Shown here one piece after another: positions 9,004-17,686 of a stretch of 64,000 bases of DNA. The position numbers and the translations under genes are program-made. The notes beneath the pieces are model-generated. The model saw nothing but the letters and a program-made list of their open reading frames with translations. It did not search any database and had not been told where the DNA came from. The DNA comes from Variovorax sp. PAMC28562 (GTDB lineage Bacteria > Pseudomonadota > Gammaproteobacteria > Burkholderiales > Burkholderiaceae_C): contig NZ_CP060296.1 of assembly GCF_014303735.1 (NCBI RefSeq), positions 2,429,501-2,493,500 of the forward strand, given 5' to 3'. Every line of letters begins with the position of its first letter. Position 1 is the first letter of the stretch.

Positions 9004-9020
9004 CTTAAGGCGCCCTTAAT
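9004..9020 (+). promoter_or_regulatory. Perfect PmrA box in the divergent promoter region
   Basis: CTTAAG-GCGCC-CTTAAT matches the PmrA consensus YTTAAK-N5-YTTAAK at every defined position. It ends 44 bases before the ATG of the PAP2-like gene, whose reading direction leads straight into the response regulator and kinase genes, so it may also autoregulate the two-component system. Confidence 0.75.
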
Positions 9021-9064
9021 GATTGGTGCGGGACCATCGTCGCCATGCTTCTTCAAAGATCGGG

Positions 9065-9637
9065 ATGACGCTGGACAACCTGGCTGTCTTCGAGTTGATG
9101 TCCGCGGGCTCGCACGCCTCGGCGGTCACGCTCGCCTTGGCTTCTGTGCTCGCGCGTCTTGCGGACTGGAGCTTGCCTCTCGCCGCAGTGATTGCGTGGC
9201 GGCGAGGGGACAGACGGTTGCGCGTCGACTTGCTGTGTGTGCTGCTTTCAGCAGCAATAGCCTACGCAGTGGTTCTCGTCATCCGCACGAGCGTTTGTGT
9301 GCCCGGGTTGGCGAGCGCCAGCTGGACCGCCTTCTCAGGATGCTGGATGGGCCCGGGATCTCCCAACGCACAGGTCGTGCTCTGGTGGAGCGTCGCGCTG
9401 GCCTTGGTGCCGTTCGGCCGGCTCGCCTGGCTGAGTTTCCCGCTGTTGACGGTCGGGCTCGGCGCGGGCTGGAGCCTGGTGTATCTGGGGCAGGTCTTCC
9501 CGCTCGACGTGCTGAGCGCGTTTCCGGCTGCCGCGGCCGGAGCGCTCGTCACGTGGGCTCTGCGCGCTGTGGTCAGGCCGGCCTGTCATCGGCTTGTTCG
9601 TCGCTCCCTTGCATTGACTCCCTGGCGCCACGCCTGA
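9065..9637 (+). CDS. PAP2-like membrane protein lacking catalytic residues
   Basis: A 190-aa polytopic protein. It begins MTLDNLAVFELMSAGSHAS and shares the helix layout and the tail YLGQVFPLDVLSAFPA with PAP2 undecaprenyl-diphosphatases (usual form SRxYLGxHxPxDVLxG). The catalytic residues are gone: the KxxxxxxRP position reads RTSVCVPG, the PSxH position reads GSPNAQV, and the R and H of the third motif are replaced (SLVYLGQVFP). It is therefore probably a non-catalytic homologue. A perfect PmrA box precedes it and the response regulator follows 24 bases downstream, so it is likely co-expressed with the two-component system. The ribosome binding site is weak. Confidence 0.7.
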   Translation: MTLDNLAVFELMSAGSHASAVTLALASVLARLADWSLPLAAVIAWRRGDRRLRVDLLCVLLSAAIAYAVVLVIRTSVCVPGLASASWTAFSGCWMGPGSPNAQVVLWWSVALALVPFGRLAWLSFPLLTVGLGAGWSLVYLGQVFPLDVLSAFPAAAAGALVTWALRAVVRPACHRLVRRSLALTPWRHA

Positions 9638-9661: not shown

Positions 9662-10318
9662 ATGCGACTGCTCGTTGTTGAAGACGACCCGATGATTGGA
9701 CGAGCGATACGTCAGGGACTCGTCGCGGCCGGCTATGCGGTCGACTGGGCGGAGGACGGGCGGATCGCGGAGCTCGCGCTGGCCAACGGTGTCTACGACC
9801 TGGTGGTGCTCGATCTGGGTCTCCCCGCGCGCGACGGCATGACGGTGCTCGAAGAACTCCGTCGCTCTGGCAACCATGTTCCGGTCATCATCGTGACGGC
9901 CAGGGACGCCGTGGATCAGCGCATTGCCGGACTCAATGCGGGCGCCGACGACTACCTGTTGAAGCCTTTCGATCTGGATGAATTAATCGCTCGCGTGCGT
10001 GCGCTGTTGCGGCGGCGCGCCGGCGTCGGCTCGTCGCTTTTGACGGCAGGTGCCTTGAGTCTGGACACCGTGCGAAAGTCGGTCACGAAGGAGGGCGCTC
10101 CTGTGTCGTTGTCGGTGCGGGAGTTCGCTTTGCTCGAGGTCCTGATGCAGCAGCCCGGAGCGGTGCTCTCGCGCGAGAAACTCGAGGAATCCATCTACGG
10201 ATGGGACGACGATATCGGCAGCAACGCGATCGAGGTGCACCTGCACAACCTTCGCAAGAAGCTTGGCGCACAGGCCATCGTGAACGTGCGTGGCGTTGGC
10301 TACAGGTTGGCGGAGTAG
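9662..10318 (+). CDS. OmpR-family response regulator, PmrA/QseB-like
   Basis: A 218-aa response regulator. The receiver has the acidic pair VVEDDP, the phospho-acceptor Asp in YDLVVLDLGLP (near residue 52), VTARD and the Lys of LLKPFD. A winged-helix DNA-binding domain follows, with LSVREFALLEVLMQQPGAVL and the recognition-helix region NAIEVHLHNLRKKLG. Length and motifs match the PmrA/QseB/BasR subgroup. Four sites fitting the PmrA half-site pattern lie within 5 kb, two of them perfect, which supports PmrA-like specificity. It is followed 4 bases later by its kinase and lies 24 bases after the PAP2-like gene. Exact orthology to PmrA rather than QseB is not provable here. Confidence 0.88.
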   Translation: MRLLVVEDDPMIGRAIRQGLVAAGYAVDWAEDGRIAELALANGVYDLVVLDLGLPARDGMTVLEELRRSGNHVPVIIVTARDAVDQRIAGLNAGADDYLLKPFDLDELIARVRALLRRRAGVGSSLLTAGALSLDTVRKSVTKEGAPVSLSVREFALLEVLMQQPGAVLSREKLEESIYGWDDDIGSNAIEVHLHNLRKKLGAQAIVNVRGVGYRLAE

Positions 10319-10322
10319 CTCG

Positions 10323-11660
10323 GTGAGATCACTGCGTGGCGACCTGATGAAGTGGCTGCTCGGGGCATTGGGCTTCGGCTCGCTCGTGCTCGTGATGGTC
10401 GCGTACGTCGTGACGCTCGGCGAAATGAACGAGGTGCTGGACGAGAACCTGAGAGAGGTCGCCGAGGCGGTGGCGCAGTACCACGCGAGCGCGCAGGTGA
10501 CGGCCAAGCCGCGGCCCGCGATGCCAGGCGGCCAAAGCGACGATGACGGCGACCTGGTGAGCCTGGTCTGGCAACGTGACGGCACACCCGTTTTTTCTTC
10601 CAATCCGCGCTTCGCCTTGCGTTTCACGGATGTGCCAGGGCCGGGTCGTTTCGAGGTCGCTGGCGAGGAATGGCGGACCTACACCGTGGTGCTGACCGAC
10701 ACCGTGGTGCAAGCGGCGCAGCGTACGACCGCGCGTCACCAGATGGCCGTTGAATCGGCGTCGAAACTCTTCATTCCGTTGGTTGCGTTGATCATCTTGC
10801 TCGCCGGACTCATCGTTGTCGCGCTGCGGCGTGGCATGCGTCCATTGGACGAAGCCACCGGCCAGATCGCGCGTCGCAGCGCGCTCAGTCTGGAGCCGAT
10901 CGCCAGCGAAAACATGCCACGCGAGATGCAGCCGTTGGTCGCCGCGTTCAACGAACTGATGCAGCGGCTGTCCAATGCCTTTTCGATGCAGCGTCGCTTC
11001 GTGGCGGATGCTGCGCATGAACTTCGCTCGCCCGTCACGGCGCTGCGGCTGCAGCTCACCTTGCTGGACCGCGCCGCCGATGCTGCGGGGCGCCTCGCCG
11101 CGTCCGCTGACCTCCGGCTGGGCATCGAACGCTCCGAGCGTCTGGTCGAGCAACTGCTGCAGCTTTCACGTGCCCAACCCGATGTGGACCTGCACCATGT
11201 CGAGCGTCTGAGTCTCGGCGATCTGGTGCGCTCCGTCGTCGCAGAATTCCATCGTGAGGCCGTGGCTCGCGGCATCGACCTCGGCGCGTCGACGACCGAA
11301 GGCATCTCTGTGGATGGCGACGCCATGCAGCTGAGAGTCTTGCTCAACAATCTGGTGCGAAACGCCTTGCGGTACTCACCCGACGGCAGCCGTGTCGATG
11401 TCGTCTCGGCCGTCGAAGAGGGGCGGCCGGTGCTGCGGGTGATCGACAACGGTCCTGGTATTCCGGCGGCTGACCGAGACCACGTCTTCGAGCGCTTTCG
11501 TCGCGGCAGTGCATCGCATGTGCGCAAAGGCGATCCCGCGGGCAGCGGCCTGGGCCTGGCCATCGTGCATGCCATCGCGCAACGCCATGGCGCCATCGTG
11601 AGTCTGTACTCCAGCCCGGAGGCGGCGCCGGGCCTCGAGGTCCGGGTCATGTTCGGTTAG
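10323..11660 (+). CDS. Sensor histidine kinase, PmrB/QseC-like
   Basis: A 445-aa kinase starting at a GTG at 10323, 4 bases after the regulator stop. It has a transmembrane helix near residues 12-32, a periplasmic domain of about 115 residues, a second helix near 150-172, a HAMP-like segment, the dimerisation His in AAHELRSPVTALRLQL, the N box LLNNLVRNALRYSPDG, DNGPGIP and GSGLGLAIV. The start of the periplasmic domain carries two ExxE pairs (EMNE, EVAE). Such pairs bind Fe(III) in enterobacterial PmrB, but similar acidic helices occur in QseC-type sensors, so metal sensing is only a hypothesis. It presumably phosphorylates the adjacent regulator. Confidence 0.88.
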   Translation: MRSLRGDLMKWLLGALGFGSLVLVMVAYVVTLGEMNEVLDENLREVAEAVAQYHASAQVTAKPRPAMPGGQSDDDGDLVSLVWQRDGTPVFSSNPRFALRFTDVPGPGRFEVAGEEWRTYTVVLTDTVVQAAQRTTARHQMAVESASKLFIPLVALIILLAGLIVVALRRGMRPLDEATGQIARRSALSLEPIASENMPREMQPLVAAFNELMQRLSNAFSMQRRFVADAAHELRSPVTALRLQLTLLDRAADAAGRLAASADLRLGIERSERLVEQLLQLSRAQPDVDLHHVERLSLGDLVRSVVAEFHREAVARGIDLGASTTEGISVDGDAMQLRVLLNNLVRNALRYSPDGSRVDVVSAVEEGRPVLRVIDNGPGIPAADRDHVFERFRRGSASHVRKGDPAGSGLGLAIVHAIAQRHGAIVSLYSSPEAAPGLEVRVMFG

Positions 11661-11675: not shown

Positions 11676-12518
11676 TCAATGTTGCGCGTCGTTCGCCTTG
11701 AGTTCGAGGTAGGTCGCTCGATCGATCTCGTGCAGCTGCCGCGGATACTTCTCAGTGGCTGAGAACCATGCATTGCGCGCGCTTTGGGCGTCCTTGCCTG
11801 CATTGACGTGCGCGTCCACCGCCAGAAAGTAGCGCATCGCATTGCGCTCGACGAGCCCGTGCGTGCCGTGGACATAGTCTGGTGTGCCTTCAGGTGTCTG
11901 TCCAACGACGGTGAAGCCGACCTTCGATCTCCCGAACGTCGCAAGGTAGGCCTGCAGGGCAGTGTGGGCCATGAAGTTCTCTTCGTATGCATACGAGAAA
12001 TGCAGAAAGCTGTGGGACGCATCGGCGGGCACGGCCTCCACCACGATGCGGTAGTTGCTCGTGCCCAAAGGTCCGGACGATGCGCCGAGACTCACCTCCA
12101 GATGCTGCGAGGTGTTGTCGATGAGCTTGAACGCAAACGGGAGGTGAAATGAGTTCTCTACAGGCTGGTCGTACTTCCGCACGACGCTCAGCGTGATCTC
12201 GTCGCCAGAGGCGCCGTTTGACACAGTGCACTTGCGGTTGTTGATATGCAGCAGCATGGCTTCGCACCACTGAAACGGTGTCCCAAGCGCCTGCGCGAGC
12301 ATGGGCAAGGGCTGATCGACGATCGCATAGACGTCGCCCTTGAGTCCGTTGGACGTGTCGCTTGACTTGAGCAGCATGGGCCGCTTAAAGGACGAGCTGG
12401 CCAAGTCGGCCCGCATCAAACCCAGCAAGGTCGAAAGACGCGCCCCATCGGAGGCACTAACCGGTAGAGCCAAGGCGCAGATCGCGCACGCGGCAATGGC
12501 ACCGCGCCAGCGTCGCAT
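11676..12518 (-). CDS. Exported protein of unknown function
   Basis: From the ATG at 12518 the protein has 280 aa and a clear signal peptide (RRWRGAIAACAICALALPVS, likely cleaved after ASA/SA near residue 22). In-frame starts at 12572 and 12581 would bury the signal, so I prefer 12518, although no strong ribosome binding site is seen. The mature part includes LKGDVYAIVDQPLPMLAQAL and a Cys pair (WCEAML and NNRKCTV), and looks mostly beta/alpha. I do not recognise the family; a START-like lipid-binding fold is conceivable but unproven. It is divergent from the diiron/ATP-grasp/acyltransferase operon and shares the perfect PmrA box at 12626-12642. It is probably a periplasmic member of the same regulon. 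Confidence 0.72.
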   Translation of the reverse strand: MRRWRGAIAACAICALALPVSASDGARLSTLLGLMRADLASSSFKRPMLLKSSDTSNGLKGDVYAIVDQPLPMLAQALGTPFQWCEAMLLHINNRKCTVSNGASGDEITLSVVRKYDQPVENSFHLPFAFKLIDNTSQHLEVSLGASSGPLGTSNYRIVVEAVPADASHSFLHFSYAYEENFMAHTALQAYLATFGRSKVGFTVVGQTPEGTPDYVHGTHGLVERNAMRYFLAVDAHVNAGKDAQSARNAWFSATEKYPRQLHEIDRATYLELKANDAQH

Positions 12519-12625
12519 CGGTGTGCGGTCTAAAACGGGGCCAGTTCGACACAGGAACGCAAGGACTCGCATTGAAAGCAAAAAAAGGGACAGACGTGAG
12601 AAGACATTAGTGTCGGAAGCTTCGG

Positions 12626-12642
12626 CTTAAGGAACACTTAAT
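12626..12642 (+). promoter_or_regulatory. Perfect PmrA box before the five-gene operon
   Basis: CTTAAG-GAACA-CTTAAT matches YTTAAK-N5-YTTAAK exactly and has the same half-sites as the 9004-9020 box with a different spacer. It lies in the divergent gap, 130 bases before the operon start at 12772 and about 108 bases before the exported-protein start at 12518, so it could serve either or both. Confidence 0.75.
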
Positions 12643-12771: not shown

Positions 12772-13689
12772 ATGGACGTTGAATCCGATCGCATGTCGAG
12801 TGAGCGACTCCATCGTCATTTGGCAGCGTTCAATGTGAGTCGATTGGAGCCGGGTCTGCCGTCATCGAACTGGGAGGACGACCTCCATCGGGAATACGCG
12901 CATCGCGTCACGGAAGGGCGTGATCTTGAAACACTGCGCCTTGCAGTCGAACCGCTAGGTTTCGAATCCGCAGGTGACAGTGACCACTTTGTTCGTTGGT
13001 TCGAGAATCTTGCTGTCGTAGGTCCCGGGCAAGGACATCCGCTTTTCGCCTGGCTTGCGGAAAAGGCCGACCTTGCGCAAATGCGATGGTTCCTCACGCA
13101 GGAAGCGTCTGGCGAGGCGGGATTCGAAGACCTGCTTGCCTACGCGCAGGTGAAGCTGCCGCCTCGAGCCAAGCTGGAGTGCGCCCGCAACTTCTGGGAT
13201 GAAATGGGCCACGGCAAGCAAGGCGCCATGCACAGTCAAATGCTGGACAACATGGTGAACGAACTCGGTCTTCAACCCGCCGTTGCCACGACCGTTTGGG
13301 AATCCCTTGCGCTGGCCAACACGATGGTCGGTCTTGCGACCACGCGCCGCTATGCGTACCACGCGCTCGGCGCGCTCGGGGTCATCGAACTGACTGCGCC
13401 GGGTCGCGTGAAGCAGGTGGCAGCTGGCATGCGGCGTCTCGGATTGAGCGGCCACACCCGCGCCTATTTCGATTTGCATGCAGCGCTGGACATCTCGCAC
13501 GCAAAGGCGTGGATTCGCGAAGTCATCCGTCCGTTAGTTGAGGCCAACCCGGCGTGCGCGCAGGCGCTGGCTGAGGGTGGATTGATGCGGCTTCGGTGCG
13601 GCGAGCGTTGCTTCGAGCGCTATTTTGAAGACTTGCGTTGTGACAAGCAGGCTGGCCACGCGCCTGCCGTTGGGCTTGCCCTGTGCTGA
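12772..13689 (+). CDS. Haem-oxygenase-like diiron (iron-containing redox) protein
   Basis: A 305-aa protein of the 'iron-containing redox enzyme' group with the haem-oxygenase-like diiron fold. Candidate metal ligands are E111 (LTQEASGE), E144 and H147 in FWDEMGHGKQ, H154, E206, and H236/D240/H243 in LHAALDISHAKAW. Such enzymes oxidise amino acids, fatty acids or other small molecules with O2. The ATG at 12772 is chosen because GAGGAAAAAAG lies just upstream; an in-frame extension to 12652 has no such site. It is the first gene of a tightly packed five-gene operon with methyltransferase, ATP-grasp, N-acyltransferase and LplT-like genes. The substrate is unknown; oxidation of an amino-acid head group or acyl chain is my hypothesis. 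Confidence 0.82.
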   Translation: MDVESDRMSSERLHRHLAAFNVSRLEPGLPSSNWEDDLHREYAHRVTEGRDLETLRLAVEPLGFESAGDSDHFVRWFENLAVVGPGQGHPLFAWLAEKADLAQMRWFLTQEASGEAGFEDLLAYAQVKLPPRAKLECARNFWDEMGHGKQGAMHSQMLDNMVNELGLQPAVATTVWESLALANTMVGLATTRRYAYHALGALGVIELTAPGRVKQVAAGMRRLGLSGHTRAYFDLHAALDISHAKAWIREVIRPLVEANPACAQALAEGGLMRLRCGERCFERYFEDLRCDKQAGHAPAVGLALC

Positions 13690-14651
13690 GCACCATAAGC
13701 GCAGCGGCTGTGCTGCGTCTGGTTGCGGACAGAGGCTACCGTTTTACCGCGGTCACACCACTCACCCATCAACGCGTGAAAGACAAACGTGGCGCGGATC
13801 CCGGCCAGACCCTGCGGGACGTCTTCGGTTGGAACACGCCGTTCTCGGCGCGAGCGCTGCCTCCGGCGCTTTTCAGCGAGATGGCCCGCGCAGGCCTGCT
13901 GCAGCCGGTGGGGTCGCTCTGGCGCAGTACCCTCCGCATCGCCAGCATCGACGACGATTTGTTCCTGCACTCGGCTTACCCCACTGTCGGGGCAGATGCT
14001 GTGTTCTTTGGCCCCGACACCTACCGGTTTGCCCGCTTCATGAAACAGGCGCTGGGTCAGCGTGTTGCGACCATGTGCCGTGGCACGCTCGTGCGCGTAT
14101 TGGACATTGGTTGTGGCAGCGGTGCCGGGGGCATTGTGGTGTCGCGTGCGTTGGCGGCAGCGGGCATGACATCGACGTTGACCATGAACGACATCAATCC
14201 GGCCGCATTGGCTCTCACCGCCGCAAATGCAGAGGTTGCCGGCGTCGCGGTGACGCTGGCGCTCGGCGATGCGCTGTCGGCGGTTGAAGGTAATTTCGAC
14301 CTGATCGTGTGCAACCCGCCGTACCTGGACGACGAAGGACAGCGAAGCTACCGTCATGGCGGCGCAAATCTTGGCCGCGCGCTCGGGCTGCGCATCGCGG
14401 CGGCCGCGCTGCAGCGGTTGGCGCCTGGCGGGCAGTTGCTCTTCTATACCGGGGTGGCCATGGTCGACGGTGAGGACCCCTTCCTGGCTGAGATGGTTCC
14501 ATTGCTCACGGCGGCCCGCTGCGACTGGCGTTACGAGGAAATCGACCCCGACGTATTTGGCGAAGAAATCGAGCGACCAATTTATGCGCACATCGACCGC
14601 GTTGCGGCCGTCGGCCTGGTCGCCACGTGCCCGTTCGAGCAGGCCAATTGA
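13683..14651 (+). CDS. Class I SAM-dependent methyltransferase with NPPY motif
   Basis: A 322-aa methyltransferase of the 'small'/HemK-like type: SAM motif VLDIGCGSGAGG near residue 140, acidic NDINPAAL, and catalytic NPPYLDD near residue 206. A helical N-terminal domain of about 130 residues precedes the Rossmann domain. The GTG start at 13683 overlaps the diiron gene by 7 bases. NPPY enzymes methylate planar or amide nitrogens (Gln, adenine, guanine). Here the operon context suggests a small-molecule or lipid head-group target rather than a release factor, since prfB is elsewhere in the window. This is inference; an amide-N or protein target remains possible. Confidence 0.82.
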   Translation: MLSTISAAAVLRLVADRGYRFTAVTPLTHQRVKDKRGADPGQTLRDVFGWNTPFSARALPPALFSEMARAGLLQPVGSLWRSTLRIASIDDDLFLHSAYPTVGADAVFFGPDTYRFARFMKQALGQRVATMCRGTLVRVLDIGCGSGAGGIVVSRALAAAGMTSTLTMNDINPAALALTAANAEVAGVAVTLALGDALSAVEGNFDLIVCNPPYLDDEGQRSYRHGGANLGRALGLRIAAAALQRLAPGGQLLFYTGVAMVDGEDPFLAEMVPLLTAARCDWRYEEIDPDVFGEEIERPIYAHIDRVAAVGLVATCPFEQAN

Positions 14652-14680
14652 GGCGCGCAATTGCCACTGAGCATGCGCCG

Positions 14681-15757
14681 ATGAATGGCGGAGATGCGCG
14701 CGTCGCTGGGACGTCGGAGTGCAGTTTGCTCGAGCGCATGCCCAAATGGCTTATCTGCGTGCCTATCGTTGCGCAGTGGCTCTGGCTGTCGTTTCGGTAC
14801 GGCAGCGCTACGCTGCCCTCGGCCGCCAATCCGAACATCACCGCAGGTGGTCTGGTCGGCGAAGGCAAGCTCGAGTACTTCAAAGGCATGGGGCCGTTAG
14901 CGAGATCCGTCATCGCCCCGCACTGCGCGGTGTTCAACGACGGTGCGCTCTCGGAGTCGTCGTTGGCGATCGCAATGAAGAGAGCCGGCTTGGCCTTTCC
15001 GATCGTGGTCAAGCCGGACCTTGGGTTGTGTGGTTATGGCGTTCAGCTGCTTGAAGACATGACTGCGCTAAGGACCTATCTTTCGCGATTTCCCATCGGA
15101 GAAACCGCCGTGCTTCAGCGCTACTTGCCGCAAAAGGGCGAGGCAGGCATTTTTTATGCGCGCGATCCCCTCAGTGACAGCGGCCGCGTGATCGGCTTGG
15201 CACTGCGTTATTTTCCTTGTGTGATTGGGGATGGGTACAGCACTGTGGCAGAGCTGATCGCGGCGGATCCACGTGCACAACGGGTCAGATCTTCGCCGCG
15301 ACATGTATGTCCCGTGCCGCTGACGGCGGTGCCATGCGCTGGTGAAGAGGTGCGTCTGGCGACCATCGGGTCGACTCGTGTGGGCGGACTGTATCGCGAC
15401 GGTGCAGCGCACATCACGCAGCAACTCACGAAAGCCATCGATGCGGTGGCCCGCGACATGCCCGAATTTCACTTCGGACGCTTCGACGTGCGATTCGACA
15501 ACTTGGAGGAACTCTCTGCCGGGCGTGGTTTTACCGTCATGGAGATCAACGGCGCAGGATCAGAAGCGATCGAGGCATGGGACCCCGGCACGGATGTGCT
15601 GCAAGGGTTTCGCATGATATTTGCGAAGCAACGACTTTTGTTTGCGATTGGCGCTGCGCAGCGCAATGCCGGAACACGGCCGATCGGCCTGTTGGAACTT
15701 GCAAGACTCAACCGGCGCCAGATCCGACTGATCAGGCTCTATCCGCCTTCTAATTGA
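14681..15757 (+). CDS. ATP-grasp ligase-like protein
   Basis: A 358-aa protein from the ATG at 14681; in-frame GTG 14627 and TTG 14648 are alternatives and no ribosome binding site decides. The N-terminus has a hydrophobic stretch WLICVPIVAQWLWLSF then SAANPNITAGGLVGEGKLEY. The ATP-grasp core shows FPIVVKPDLGLCGYGV, FGRFDVRF and VMEINGAGSEA, the last carrying the metal-binding Glu and Asn. ATP-grasp enzymes activate a carboxylate as acyl phosphate and join it to an amine or thiol, as in D-Ala-D-Ala ligase. The hydrophobic N-terminus suggests membrane association. Between the methyltransferase and the N-acyltransferase, it may build or extend the amino-acid part of a lipid. The substrate is unknown. 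Confidence 0.82.
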   Translation: MNGGDARVAGTSECSLLERMPKWLICVPIVAQWLWLSFRYGSATLPSAANPNITAGGLVGEGKLEYFKGMGPLARSVIAPHCAVFNDGALSESSLAIAMKRAGLAFPIVVKPDLGLCGYGVQLLEDMTALRTYLSRFPIGETAVLQRYLPQKGEAGIFYARDPLSDSGRVIGLALRYFPCVIGDGYSTVAELIAADPRAQRVRSSPRHVCPVPLTAVPCAGEEVRLATIGSTRVGGLYRDGAAHITQQLTKAIDAVARDMPEFHFGRFDVRFDNLEELSAGRGFTVMEINGAGSEAIEAWDPGTDVLQGFRMIFAKQRLLFAIGAAQRNAGTRPIGLLELARLNRRQIRLIRLYPPSN

Positions 15758-15764
15758 GTGCCGA

Positions 15765-16541
15765 GTGCCGACCCACGCCACCTTGATCACACAGTGGGCC
15801 GACTCCGAAGCCGAAGTTCGCGAGGCTCAGCGCCTACGGTATCTGGTGTTTGCACAGGAAATGGGCGCGCGCCTCACACCACCCGCGGGCACTCCGTCCG
15901 GAGTCGACGCGGATCGATTCGATCCTTACTGCGACCACCTGCTTGTGCGTGCAGTTGGTTCCGACCACGCCTCAGGGCTGCTCATCGGAACCTACCGCGT
16001 GCTGACGCCAATGGCCGCTGAACGCGCCGGCGGTTTCTACACTGACACTGAGTTCGACCTCGCACCGTTGCAAGCGCTGCGCAGTCGCGCAGTAGAACTT
16101 GGCCGCTCGTGTGTGCATCCGGCCTGGCGATCTGGAGCCGTGATCATGGCCTTGTGGACTGCGCTGGGACACTACATGGTCAGGCGCGGACTGGACACCA
16201 TGATCGGTTGCGCCAGCATTGGCCTCGATGATCACGGCGCGACGGCCAGCCGGCTGTGGCGCCGTCTGTGTCATACCCATCTGGTCGAGCAGCAATGGCG
16301 AGTCCAGCCGCGCGTTCCCTTGCCGCTTGCCGCTGCAAACGACGGCGATCACAGTGACGCGCCCTGCGATGCGCCGCCACTGATCAAAGGGTATCTGAGA
16401 TGCGGGGCCCGTCTGCTCGGCCCTCCCGCGTTCGACGTGAAGTTCAATACCGCGGACCTGCCTCTGATCCTGCGAATGGACGACGTGACGTCGAAGTATC
16501 GCCGGCACTTTTTCGACATGACTACAAGTGCGGCCTTGTGA
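15765..16541 (+). CDS. OlsB-like GNAT N-acyltransferase
   Basis: A 258-aa acyltransferase of the OlsB/haemolysin-like GNAT family. It shows REAQRLRYLVFAQEMGARL near the N-terminus, GTYRVL, and the signature ELGRSCVHPAWRSGAVIMAL followed by GCASIGLDD. OlsB transfers a 3-hydroxyacyl group from acyl-ACP to the amino group of ornithine, giving lyso-ornithine lipid; related enzymes use Gln, Gly or Lys. The GTG at 15765 follows the ATP-grasp stop by 7 bases, and the stop overlaps the LplT-like start (GTGA). No OlsA-type O-acyltransferase is adjacent, so the product may stay a lyso-aminolipid or be completed elsewhere. The amino acid used is unknown. Confidence 0.85.
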   Translation: MPTHATLITQWADSEAEVREAQRLRYLVFAQEMGARLTPPAGTPSGVDADRFDPYCDHLLVRAVGSDHASGLLIGTYRVLTPMAAERAGGFYTDTEFDLAPLQALRSRAVELGRSCVHPAWRSGAVIMALWTALGHYMVRRGLDTMIGCASIGLDDHGATASRLWRRLCHTHLVEQQWRVQPRVPLPLAAANDGDHSDAPCDAPPLIKGYLRCGARLLGPPAFDVKFNTADLPLILRMDDVTSKYRRHFFDMTTSAAL

Positions 16542-17686
16542 AAAAGCGGGTGCTGCTGCCAGTGTTGCTGGCGCAATTTTTCAGCTCACTCGCGGACAAC
16601 GCACTGCTGACAGTTGCCATTGCGCTACTCATTTCGCGAAGTGCACCGGACTGGATGACACCGGCGCTCCGCGTAGCTTTCTATGCTTCTTATGTGTTGC
16701 TCGCGGCTTTTGCTGGCGCAGTGTCGGATGCCGCCCCAAAAGGCCAGGTCATGCTGATCACCAATCTGGTCAAACTCGGTGGCTGCGGACTTTTGGCTTG
16801 GGGCGTACAGCCGCTGCTTTGCTATGCGCTGGTGGGCCTTGGGGCCGCCGGCTATGGACCGGCCAAATACGGCATCCTGCCTGAATTGTTGTTGCCTGAA
16901 GATCTGGTTGCGGCGAATGGCTGGATCGAGGCGACTACGGTCGTATCGATCGTGGCCGGTCTGGCACTGGGCGGTGTGCTGGTCGAGACGGCAAGCGCGT
17001 TACCGGTCATCGCCGCAATTTTCCTGGCCTCCGCGATCGTCACGGTCTTGATTCCGCGAAGCCACGCCCGAAATCGCGCAGCGCTGGCAAATCCGCGCCA
17101 ACTGATTTTGTGTTTTGTCGATGCACTTGCCCTGCTGTGGCACGACCGGCAAGCACGCACCTCGCTGGCCGTCACCAGCCTGTTTTGGGCGGCGGCGGCA
17201 GTACTTCAATTCATGGTGTTGCGCTGGGCTGGCGAACGACTAGGACTGCCCCTTTCACGAGCCGCCTTGTTGCAACTCGCCGTAGCGATCGGAATGGTGG
17301 CTGGAGCCATTGGAGCGGCACGTTTCGTAACTCTGAAGCGAGCGATGCGCACACTGCCACTCGGCGTGCTGCTCGGGGCACTGGTCACCCTCATGGCGTT
17401 CGCGACAGACGTCACTGTCGCTTTCGGATTGCTGTTGCTGATCGGAGCCTTGGCTGGGTTGCTGCTGGTGCCAATGAATGCCGTGCTGCAGAGCCGCGGC
17501 TTGCTGCTAATGCAACCTGGCCAATCGATCGCAGCCCAAAATTTCTATGAGAGCCTGGCGTCGTTGTTGATGCTCGGGCTCTACGGGCTGCTGGTTGCGA
17601 TGCAACTGCCTCTCATCGGCATATTGGTGGGCTTCGGCGCATTGTTGATGGTGGCGTCGGCCTGCGTGGTTTTCGCCGGCGCCTAA
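16538..17686 (+). CDS. LplT-like lysophospholipid transporter (MFS)
   Basis: A 382-aa protein with about 12 hydrophobic helices, starting at a GTG at 16538. The N-terminus LLAQFFSSLADNALLTVAI and the motif GYGPAKYGILPELLLPEDLVAANGWIE (only its central part is quoted here as AKYGILPEL) match LplT. In E. coli LplT flips lysophospholipids inward for reacylation by Aas. Here no Aas is fused or adjacent; instead the partner is the OlsB-like enzyme, whose direct product is also a lysolipid. The 4-base overlap with that gene supports shared function: moving a lyso-aminolipid across the inner membrane, which is inference. Confidence 0.87.
   Translation: MKKRVLLPVLLAQFFSSLADNALLTVAIALLISRSAPDWMTPALRVAFYASYVLLAAFAGAVSDAAPKGQVMLITNLVKLGGCGLLAWGVQPLLCYALVGLGAAGYGPAKYGILPELLLPEDLVAANGWIEATTVVSIVAGLALGGVLVETASALPVIAAIFLASAIVTVLIPRSHARNRAALANPRQLILCFVDALALLWHDRQARTSLAVTSLFWAAAAVLQFMVLRWAGERLGLPLSRAALLQLAVAIGMVAGAIGAARFVTLKRAMRTLPLGVLLGALVTLMAFATDVTVAFGLLLLIGALAGLLLVPMNAVLQSRGLLLMQPGQSIAAQNFYESLASLLMLGLYGLLVAMQLPLIGILVGFGALLMVASACVVFAGA

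Follow-up and report, generated by a model that had tools for sequence, protein, structure and literature searches.

About one in two sequenced bacteria makes ornithine-type amino lipids (PMC11631085, PMC12186959). Among the haem-oxygenase-like diiron enzymes (HDOs), HrmI and BelK convert the side-chain amine of lysine into a nitro group (PMC10764440, PMC13108848). The DNA analyzed here, a window of 64,000 nucleotides, comes from a single-contig genome of 4.69 Mb whose closest named relatives are Variovorax. It contains a five-gene operon (12772–17686, plus strand) that encodes, in order, an HDO, a HemK-like methyltransferase (MT), an ATP-grasp ligase (ATPg), an OlsB-type N-acyltransferase, and an LplT-type lysophospholipid transporter, and every frame is open and intact. 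To our knowledge, few enzymes that extend the head groups of amino lipids are known. We give about an even chance to the reading that these genes serve the synthesis and transport of an amino-acid lipid that has one acyl chain and a modified head group; both its chemistry and its identity are predicted from sequence.

Linkage of the ATP-grasp ligase to amino-lipid synthases

The strongest new evidence, drawn from gene neighborhoods, is that ATPg is tied to amino-lipid synthesis via OlsB here and via OlsF-like paralogs and VTT membrane proteins elsewhere. ATPg reaches no Pfam cut-off (best match RimK, 14.9 bits against 21), and the ATP-grasp assignment was based on invariant motif residues and a fold comparison. 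Residues K129, R285, D287, E306, and N308 are invariant in all 49 sequences compared, those of the window and of 48 loci, and we take D287, E306, and N308 to be Mg ligands. The predicted structure (mean pLDDT 78) has cyanophycin synthetase (CphA), GshAB, Ddl, and RimK as Foldseek neighbors. CphA, GshAB, and RimK lengthen a C-terminal carboxyl by ligation. The quality of the HDO and ATPg models is limited, because the alignments behind them were homogeneous and held 16 and 19 sequences. An argument from a membrane helix in ATPg was dropped: residues 39–58 are hydrophobic (median KD 0.84, 49 sequences), and another stretch is nearly equal.

In L037, L040, L041, L043, and L060, the gene immediately before ATPg encodes OlsB, an arrangement different from that of the window. 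In the OlsB tree these five group with the OlsB encoded elsewhere in the window genome, referred to as house OlsB (98/100), and the operon-type sequences from the Variovorax group form a separate set (98/97, 16 rows). House OlsB is present in 37 of 37 same-genus genomes, with fragments only in G010, G012, G022, and G028. A second, closer paralog (at least 70% identity) is confined to the seven operon-bearing genomes of the genus and is in two pieces in G010. OlsB is common in general, occurring in 51 of 61 relatives. There was no match to a PF01553 (OlsA/PlsC-type) acyltransferase within 500 kb of the operon; the absence of a nearby O-acyltransferase match suggests that the product is probably single-chained, which would suit LplT. 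The operon LplT is the second copy in the genome, and the other (560.8 bits) adjoins an alanine racemase gene.

More distant relatives were sought in 398 Pseudomonadota genomes, and the ATPg family was found at E ≤ 1e-30 in 14, the source genome and 13 others. In 12 of these 13 loci, ATPg is either fused to a VTT-like gene or immediately preceded by one on its own strand (tblastn, 29–45% identity). Six of the 12 VTT genes were scanned by Pfam (L170, L172, L178, L179, L181, and L182), and all are above the VTT cut-off. VTT/DedA proteins include lipid scramblases and flippases. An OlsF-like protein is encoded no more than 2.4 kb from ATPg in 10 of the 13 genomes and in five of eight genera, with six of the ten genomes belonging to one genus. 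Random placement predicts 0.12 such genomes against the 10 observed, a calculation that does not allow for relatedness. The spacing between the OlsF-like gene and ATPg is 10 nt in G451 and 39 nt in G089. The linked proteins score 404–435 bits with the OlsF model (cut-off 620); four of the ten genomes encode a canonical OlsF above the cut-off elsewhere, so in these the linked gene is a second copy. The OlsF family search recovered OlsF-like genes in four loci that tblastn with an OlsB query had missed. A second OlsF homolog in Vibrio cholerae is a proven ornithine-lipid synthase (PMC12186959); we do not equate it with the ATPg-linked type.

The ATPg family is also found in 28 plasmid records. 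On Azospirillum plasmids ATPg is annotated inside a VTT-domain protein in five of five records (two regions viewed, one Pfam-confirmed), and on Salinivibrio plasmids its overlap with a VTT gene is 4 nt in one and 14 nt in the other of two records viewed. Paracoccus denitrificans has a VTT gene on the opposite strand, about 1 kb from ATPg. On a Komagataeibacter medellinensis plasmid, ATPg is divergently oriented to genes for HDO (51% identity) and MT (44%), and all five operon genes are on a plasmid in one Variovorax.

Other genes also accompany ATPg. A DUF1989-type gene, instead of HDO and MT, is upstream of ATPg in six loci (L042, L047, L048, L050, L052, and L053), and a YqcI/YcgG-type protein is likewise encoded ahead of ATPg in L047, L052, and L053; these calls came from clusters, with Pfam run on three and two of them, respectively. 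GrbE and DcsA are members of the YqcI/YcgG family. GrbE is related to DcsA and other known arginine hydroxylases (PMC11705231). In L179, three genes separate ATPg from the OlsF-like gene: a small one that is unassigned or of DinB type, one for an NRDE/TANGO2 protein, and one of YHS type; L181 and L182 resemble it by eye, and in Salinivibrio (L151 and L153) DinB-type and NRDE genes lie behind ATPg. A UPF0014 permease, presumably FetB-like, and an ATPase gene stand beside HDO-MT-ATPg on a Komagataeibacter conjugative plasmid (L154; Table 1).

The operon was examined across species by scanning one genome per species with two conserved peptides, which gave 50 ATPg loci as a lower bound. Counts use 49 of these, the partial match in L062 being excluded. 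Matches covering less than 75% of the query were not counted, so that genes in pieces or truncated are missing from the counts (ATPg in L058 and LplT in L046, for instance), and some loci end at contig edges, so that locus counts are lower bounds. Neighboring genes were taken from GC3-filtered calls and tblastn, since most clusters of six-frame open reading frames (ORFs) from GC-rich loci consisted of shadow frames. The filtered calls missed genes in the low-GC loci L036 and L039; L039 was read directly and L036 by tblastn. HDO, MT, ATPg, and OlsB occur together in 23 of the 49 loci and all five genes in 12. The arrangement varies, with OlsB ahead of ATPg or HDO and MT on the opposite strand in some loci; in L052 and L053 the counted OlsB is 1.7 kb away on the opposite strand. 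All 11 tested genomes that have HDO-MT-ATPg and lack an adjacent OlsB carry one elsewhere, weak evidence given how common OlsB is. Among 61 related genomes, the source included, HDO is present in seven and ATPg in the same seven; an eighth ATPg match (G037, E 8e-4) was taken as noise. Strong MT matches are found in the same seven genomes and in two more at 45–49% identity. Gene-tree distances among MT, ATPg, and OlsB correlate at 0.92–0.95 (MT-ATPg, r 0.93; ATPg-OlsB, r 0.92), with 0 of 1000 permutations as high; kinship among the sequences inflates these correlations.

The occurrence of the same genes together in many species, and of HDO and ATPg in the same seven of 61 genomes, shows that the gene set is not a chance assembly. 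The original prediction had named conservation of the five-gene block as a check. Conservation holds for the shared distribution of HDO and ATPg, and less well for the full set, which is found in 12 of 49 loci, and for LplT, found in 17. The five gene identities proposed earlier are borne out by the family scores in Table 1 and by the ATPg motif residues and fold comparison, and the operon-type spacing is confirmed as well. A ribosome-binding-site-like GAGGAAAA precedes the HDO ATG, HDO and MT overlap by 7 nt and OlsB and LplT by 4 nt, and the gap from ATPg to OlsB is 7 nt. The probable start of ATPg is the ATG at 14681, which leaves a gap of 29 nt behind MT. A phospholipid-repair operon centered on LplT was considered and rejected, as LplT is the least conserved member.

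The diiron enzyme and the methyltransferase

HDO is probably an N-oxygenase, as judged from its sequence and its model. A profile search of the PDB gave HrmI at E 9.5e-44, followed by SznF and BesC at E 0.002–0.003, and the single sequence matches HrmI at E 3.5e-34. With the HDO model as a Foldseek query, four HrmI structures were on top, with SznF, FlcD, and RohS among the next; BesC and UndA rank lower in the sequence and fold matches. The metal ligands of SznF are E215, H225, E281, H311, D315, and H318 (PMC11705231). HDO residues E111, E144, H154, E206, H236, D240, and H243 align with the HrmI metal-ligand positions. In 32 sequences (31 loci and the window), E111, H154, and D240 are conserved in 32 and E144, E206, H236, and H243 in 31. 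The six SznF ligand positions and E111 are thus kept in the locus HDOs save for one degenerate copy in L032. The original prediction described enzymes of this fold as oxidizing amino-acid and lipid substrates. The diiron identity is upheld, and a general lipid oxidase is not, the closest relatives being N-oxygenases. Pocket structures, proposed at the same time as a check, were predicted for HDO and ATPg. Near the active site the HDO model is poor, and for this reason the substrate was not read off it.

MT has an N-terminal extension and an NPPY motif, in which NPP is conserved in 36 of 36 sequences and Y in 34. It scores 65.4 bits with the curated PrmC model, below the membership cut-off of 199.1, and is under the curated cut-off of every NCBIfam model listed. 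The METHYLTRANSFERASE is found in the company of N-oxygenase-like proteins. MT was found in 12 of 299 distant genomes searched, and in eight of these it adjoins a second HDO type (HDO2), one of which was checked as PF14518 and the remaining ones identified by 39–49% identity. In one of the 12 it adjoins a YqcI/GntA-type protein that scores 236 bits with the GntA N-hydroxylase model (cut-off 145), and in the other three a partner of the N-oxygenase-like kind was not recognized. A GCS2-type gene (glutamate-cysteine ligase family) is divergent beside HDO2-MT in three of the eight. In two same-genus genomes that lack the operon (G012 and G024; loci L069 and L070), MT stands beside PurD-like (GARS) ATP-grasp and PF14518 genes, and one of the two has the gene order HDO2-MT-ligase. 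With HDO2, MT, and a PurD-like ligase, the three functions thus recur with unrelated parts. A row of GntA-type N-hydroxylase, HemK-like MT, and EgtD-type methyltransferase genes was seen in L092 (Table 1).

Regulation and neighboring genes

A PmrA-type direct repeat precedes the operon, and a second lies upstream of the genes for a PAP2-like protein, a response regulator, and a sensor kinase (Table 1). The motif is the one cited for PmrA (PMC10927774). The pattern YTTAAK-N5-YTTAAK has three occurrences in the 4.69-Mb genome and the reversed control pattern has none; the third box lies between another sensor kinase gene and a DegP-like (trypsin and PDZ) gene. PmrA is the top-scoring model for the response regulator, though the score is below the curated cut-off. 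In relatives, the box lies between a related kinase gene and a DegP-like gene in 17 of the 29 box loci fetched, and in L119 it is beside a related response regulator gene. The number of boxes in many relatives is no higher than that of the reversed control, and only their position is informative there; this position supports recognition by this regulator family. A genus-conserved box of the TTTAAG-N5-YTTAAG type was also noted between QseC/PmrB-like kinase and DegP-like protease genes in L068 (~4085), L120, L122–L124, L126, L129, L131–L134, L136, L138, L140, L141, and L143–L145.

These data suggest that the PmrA/QseB-like response regulator is probably the regulator of the operon in this strain. 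In 40 other operon loci, the 600 nt ahead of the first gene contain no PmrA-type box, and no comparable pair of regulator and kinase genes was found beside the operon there, save a weak one in L020 (40%/29% identity). PmrA-type control is therefore likely here, yet it does not appear general across the operon loci. The earlier proposal that the lipid is made on PmrA-type signals thus agrees with the box in this genome and does not extend to the 40 others.

The PAP2-type gene directly behind its box, ahead of the regulator and kinase genes, points to an envelope-related regulon. Across the box-bearing intergenic region from the operon is a divergent ORF with a signal-peptide-like start, as judged by eye. 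It matched no Pfam or NCBIfam family and had no PDB relative at E ≤ 1, and homologs of 35–40% identity are present in the ATPg loci L026, L032, and L044.

Table 1 Features of the window and of comparison loci
Feature	Position	Strand	Basis or remark
Second PmrA-type box	9004–9020	+	Upstream of PAP2-like, response regulator, and kinase genes
PAP2-type gene, probable start 9065	9023–9637	+	Undecaprenyl-diphosphate phosphatase model, 33.6 bits (cut-off 229)
PmrA/QseB-like response regulator	9662–10318	+	PRK10643 PmrA, 251.6 bits (below cut-off 330)
QseC/PmrB-like sensor kinase	10290–11660	+	Curated family model search
Divergent ORF	11676–12581	-	
PmrA-type direct repeat CTTAAG-N5-CTTAAT	12626–12642	+	129 nt upstream of HDO start codon
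HDO, probable N-oxygenase, 305 aa	12772–13689	+	PF14518, 147.7 bits (cut-off 28.9)
MT, HemK/PrmC-like class I methyltransferase, 322 aa	13683–14651	+	MTS PF05175, 55.4 bits (cut-off 23)
ATPg, unnamed ATP-grasp ligase family	14627–15757 (longest frame)	+	Motif residues, predicted fold
OlsB-type N-acyltransferase, operon-specific paralog, 258 aa	15765–16541	+	Acetyltransf_5 PF13444, 114 bits (cut-off 22.4)
LplT-type lysophospholipid transporter, GTG start 16538	16538–17686	+	PRK11195, 428.9 bits (cut-off 297)
Degenerate HDO	L032 5919–6653		Several metal ligands lost
GCS2-type ligase gene	L088 10413–11633		Divergent from HDO2-MT
GCS2-type ligase gene	L091 4357–5490		Divergent from HDO2-MT
GCS2-type ligase gene	L093 5123–6238		Divergent from HDO2-MT
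GntA-type N-hydroxylase, HemK-like MT, EgtD-type methyltransferase	L092 6517–9393	-	
UPF0014 permease and ATPase gene	L154 8236–9671	-	Beside HDO-MT-ATPg

Proposed pathway, alternatives, and known systems

The proposed pathway starts with OlsB, which from its enzyme family would N-acylate the alpha-amine of a basic amino acid (ornithine, lysine, or arginine) and give a lyso-lipid with a free carboxyl. ATPg would activate a carboxyl, by its linkage and fold most likely the free alpha-carboxyl of the N-acyl amino acid, and may couple it to an amine or a second amino acid. HDO would N-oxygenate a nitrogen of the side chain, either before the amino acid is built in or once it forms part of the head group, and MT may methylate the N-oxygenated nitrogen or a neighboring one. 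LplT would carry the product across the inner membrane, and the adjacent two-component system probably turns the operon on in this strain. We infer which amino acid is used, what is ligated to it, where the methyl group sits, and in which order the reactions take place. The amino-acid-lipid product of the original prediction is supported by the linkage of ATPg to OlsB here and to OlsF-like paralogs elsewhere; its identity and chemistry are still predicted ones.

Several observations weigh against this reading. The operon OlsB scores 170.8 bits with the L-ornithine N-acyltransferase model NF052554, under the cut-off of 350; house OlsB is also under it (157.1 bits). The genes are incompletely present among the 49 ATPg loci (HDO in 31, MT in 35, OlsB in 37, and LplT in 17), HDO-MT-ATPg exists without an adjoining OlsB, as in L039, and tree distances of HDO and LplT correlate weakly (r 0.45, a value reached in 43 of 1000 permutations). 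The L047 OlsB, also ahead of ATPg, sits on a long branch outside the house-type group. One of the 13 distant ATPg loci has no VTT gene, and three of the 13 genomes have no linked OlsF-like gene and show weak matches elsewhere (61–76 bits). Relatives of two ATP-grasp queries were not recognized near the eight HDO2-MT loci. The degenerate HDO of L032 lies beside otherwise intact-looking operon genes, and the HDO model has pLDDT below 50 at residues 115–149 and 169–187, around the active site.

The operon might instead make a natural product for secretion, an N-acylated amino acid or dipeptide that serves as a signal, metallophore, or antimetabolite, with LplT as its exporter. HDO plus ATP-grasp is a recognized natural-product combination found in at least 25 distinct clusters, mangotoxin included (PMC13185094), and the present operon may be among those cluster kinds. 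Relatives of HDO act in the hormaomycin, belactosin, fragin, and streptozotocin pathways. A secreted product would also fit the patchy distribution of the operon in the genus (7 of 37 genomes) and the plasmid-borne ATPg, which is accompanied by HDO and MT in Komagataeibacter and by all the other operon genes in one Variovorax. We nevertheless consider it rather unlikely, because elsewhere ATPg is linked to OlsF-like paralogs, relatives of a bifunctional amino-lipid synthase, and to VTT membrane proteins, and because the operon has LplT and no drug exporter in its place. The linkage also bears on the idea that HDO-MT-ATPg (amino acid or peptide) and OlsB-LplT (lipid) are two pathways that share an operon for co-regulation only. 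HDO-MT-ATPg does stand alone in some loci (L039), HDO2-MT occurs without a recognized ATP-grasp neighbor, and LplT is frequently absent. Two separate pathways are very unlikely, however, given that two different arrangements join ATPg with OlsB-type genes, that other bacteria have it next to OlsF-like genes, that the gene-tree distances match, and that the operon OlsB paralog occurs only where HDO and ATPg do.

The chemistry of HDO is a separate matter. It could be a C–C cleaving, desaturating, or decarboxylating enzyme that acts on an amino acid or acyl chain, comparable to BesC, MboA, or UndA. HDOs that share the same ligands catalyze different chemistries (PMC13108848), and BesC is the sole NCBIfam match of HDO, a weak one (20.8 bits against a cut-off of 500). 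The best sequence and fold matches are HrmI and then SznF, FlcD, and RohS, with BesC and UndA lower, and the partner MT occurs with a GntA-type N-hydroxylase in another genome. These data make such a non-N-oxygenase unlikely.

Taken jointly, the amino-lipid reading and the distant linkages raise a tentative and somewhat doubtful generalization, in which ATPg would be a general amino-lipid head-group ligase that works with OlsB or OlsF synthases and a translocator (VTT or LplT) across the Pseudomonadota. Such a ligase could, with the same reserve, fit the enzyme class missing for extended lipids of the ornithine-taurine type, and the Variovorax type, which combines it with a diiron N-oxygenase and MT, might then make an N-oxygenated, methylated lipid. 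The family's association with ornithine-lipid synthases and translocator-like proteins offers a testable entry into extended amino lipids, and an N-oxygenated, methylated lipid, if true, would be a new lipid class. Among the matches listed in the literature searched, mostly non-subscription, we found no description of a gene set of OlsB, LplT, ATP-grasp, and diiron N-oxygenase and no report of an N-oxygenated amino lipid of the predicted kind.

Of the closest known systems, ornithine lipid synthesis by OlsB/OlsA or OlsF has the PF13444 N-acyltransferase in common with the operon, and OlsF-like paralogs lie beside ATPg elsewhere; the operon differs in having no O-acyltransferase match nearby, in an OlsB under the ornithine-specific cut-off, and in the addition of ATPg, HDO, MT, and a translocator. 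In the ornithine-taurine lipid cerilipin, the amide link is at the ornithine carboxyl. Cerilipin, from Gluconobacter cerinus, is an amino lipid plus a second residue, an extension feasible for an ATP-grasp enzyme, and the excerpts of PMC4484230 and PMC12493201 name no enzyme that forms it. The named entries among the 120 matches listed include Komagataeibacter and Gluconacetobacter and no Gluconobacter. A link between ATPg and this lipid is speculation. The operon LplT is above the curated cut-off like typical LplT, and differs as a second copy whose only acyltransferase partner in the operon is OlsB. HDO resembles the lysine N-oxygenases HrmI and BelK of hormaomycin and belactosin in sequence, fold, and all aligned metal-ligand positions; it has 26–27% identity to HrmI in the fold alignment and, unlike HrmI, is encoded in an acyltransferase operon. 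By description, the mangotoxin mbo-type clusters likewise have a diiron oxidase beside an amino-acid ligase (PMC13185094), to which the present operon adds an OlsB-type acyltransferase and LplT. The N-methylated ornithine lipids of Singulisphaera (OlsG), also likened by description, share a methylated head-group nitrogen (PMC12493201) with the predicted product, and the operon has a diiron enzyme and a ligase besides.

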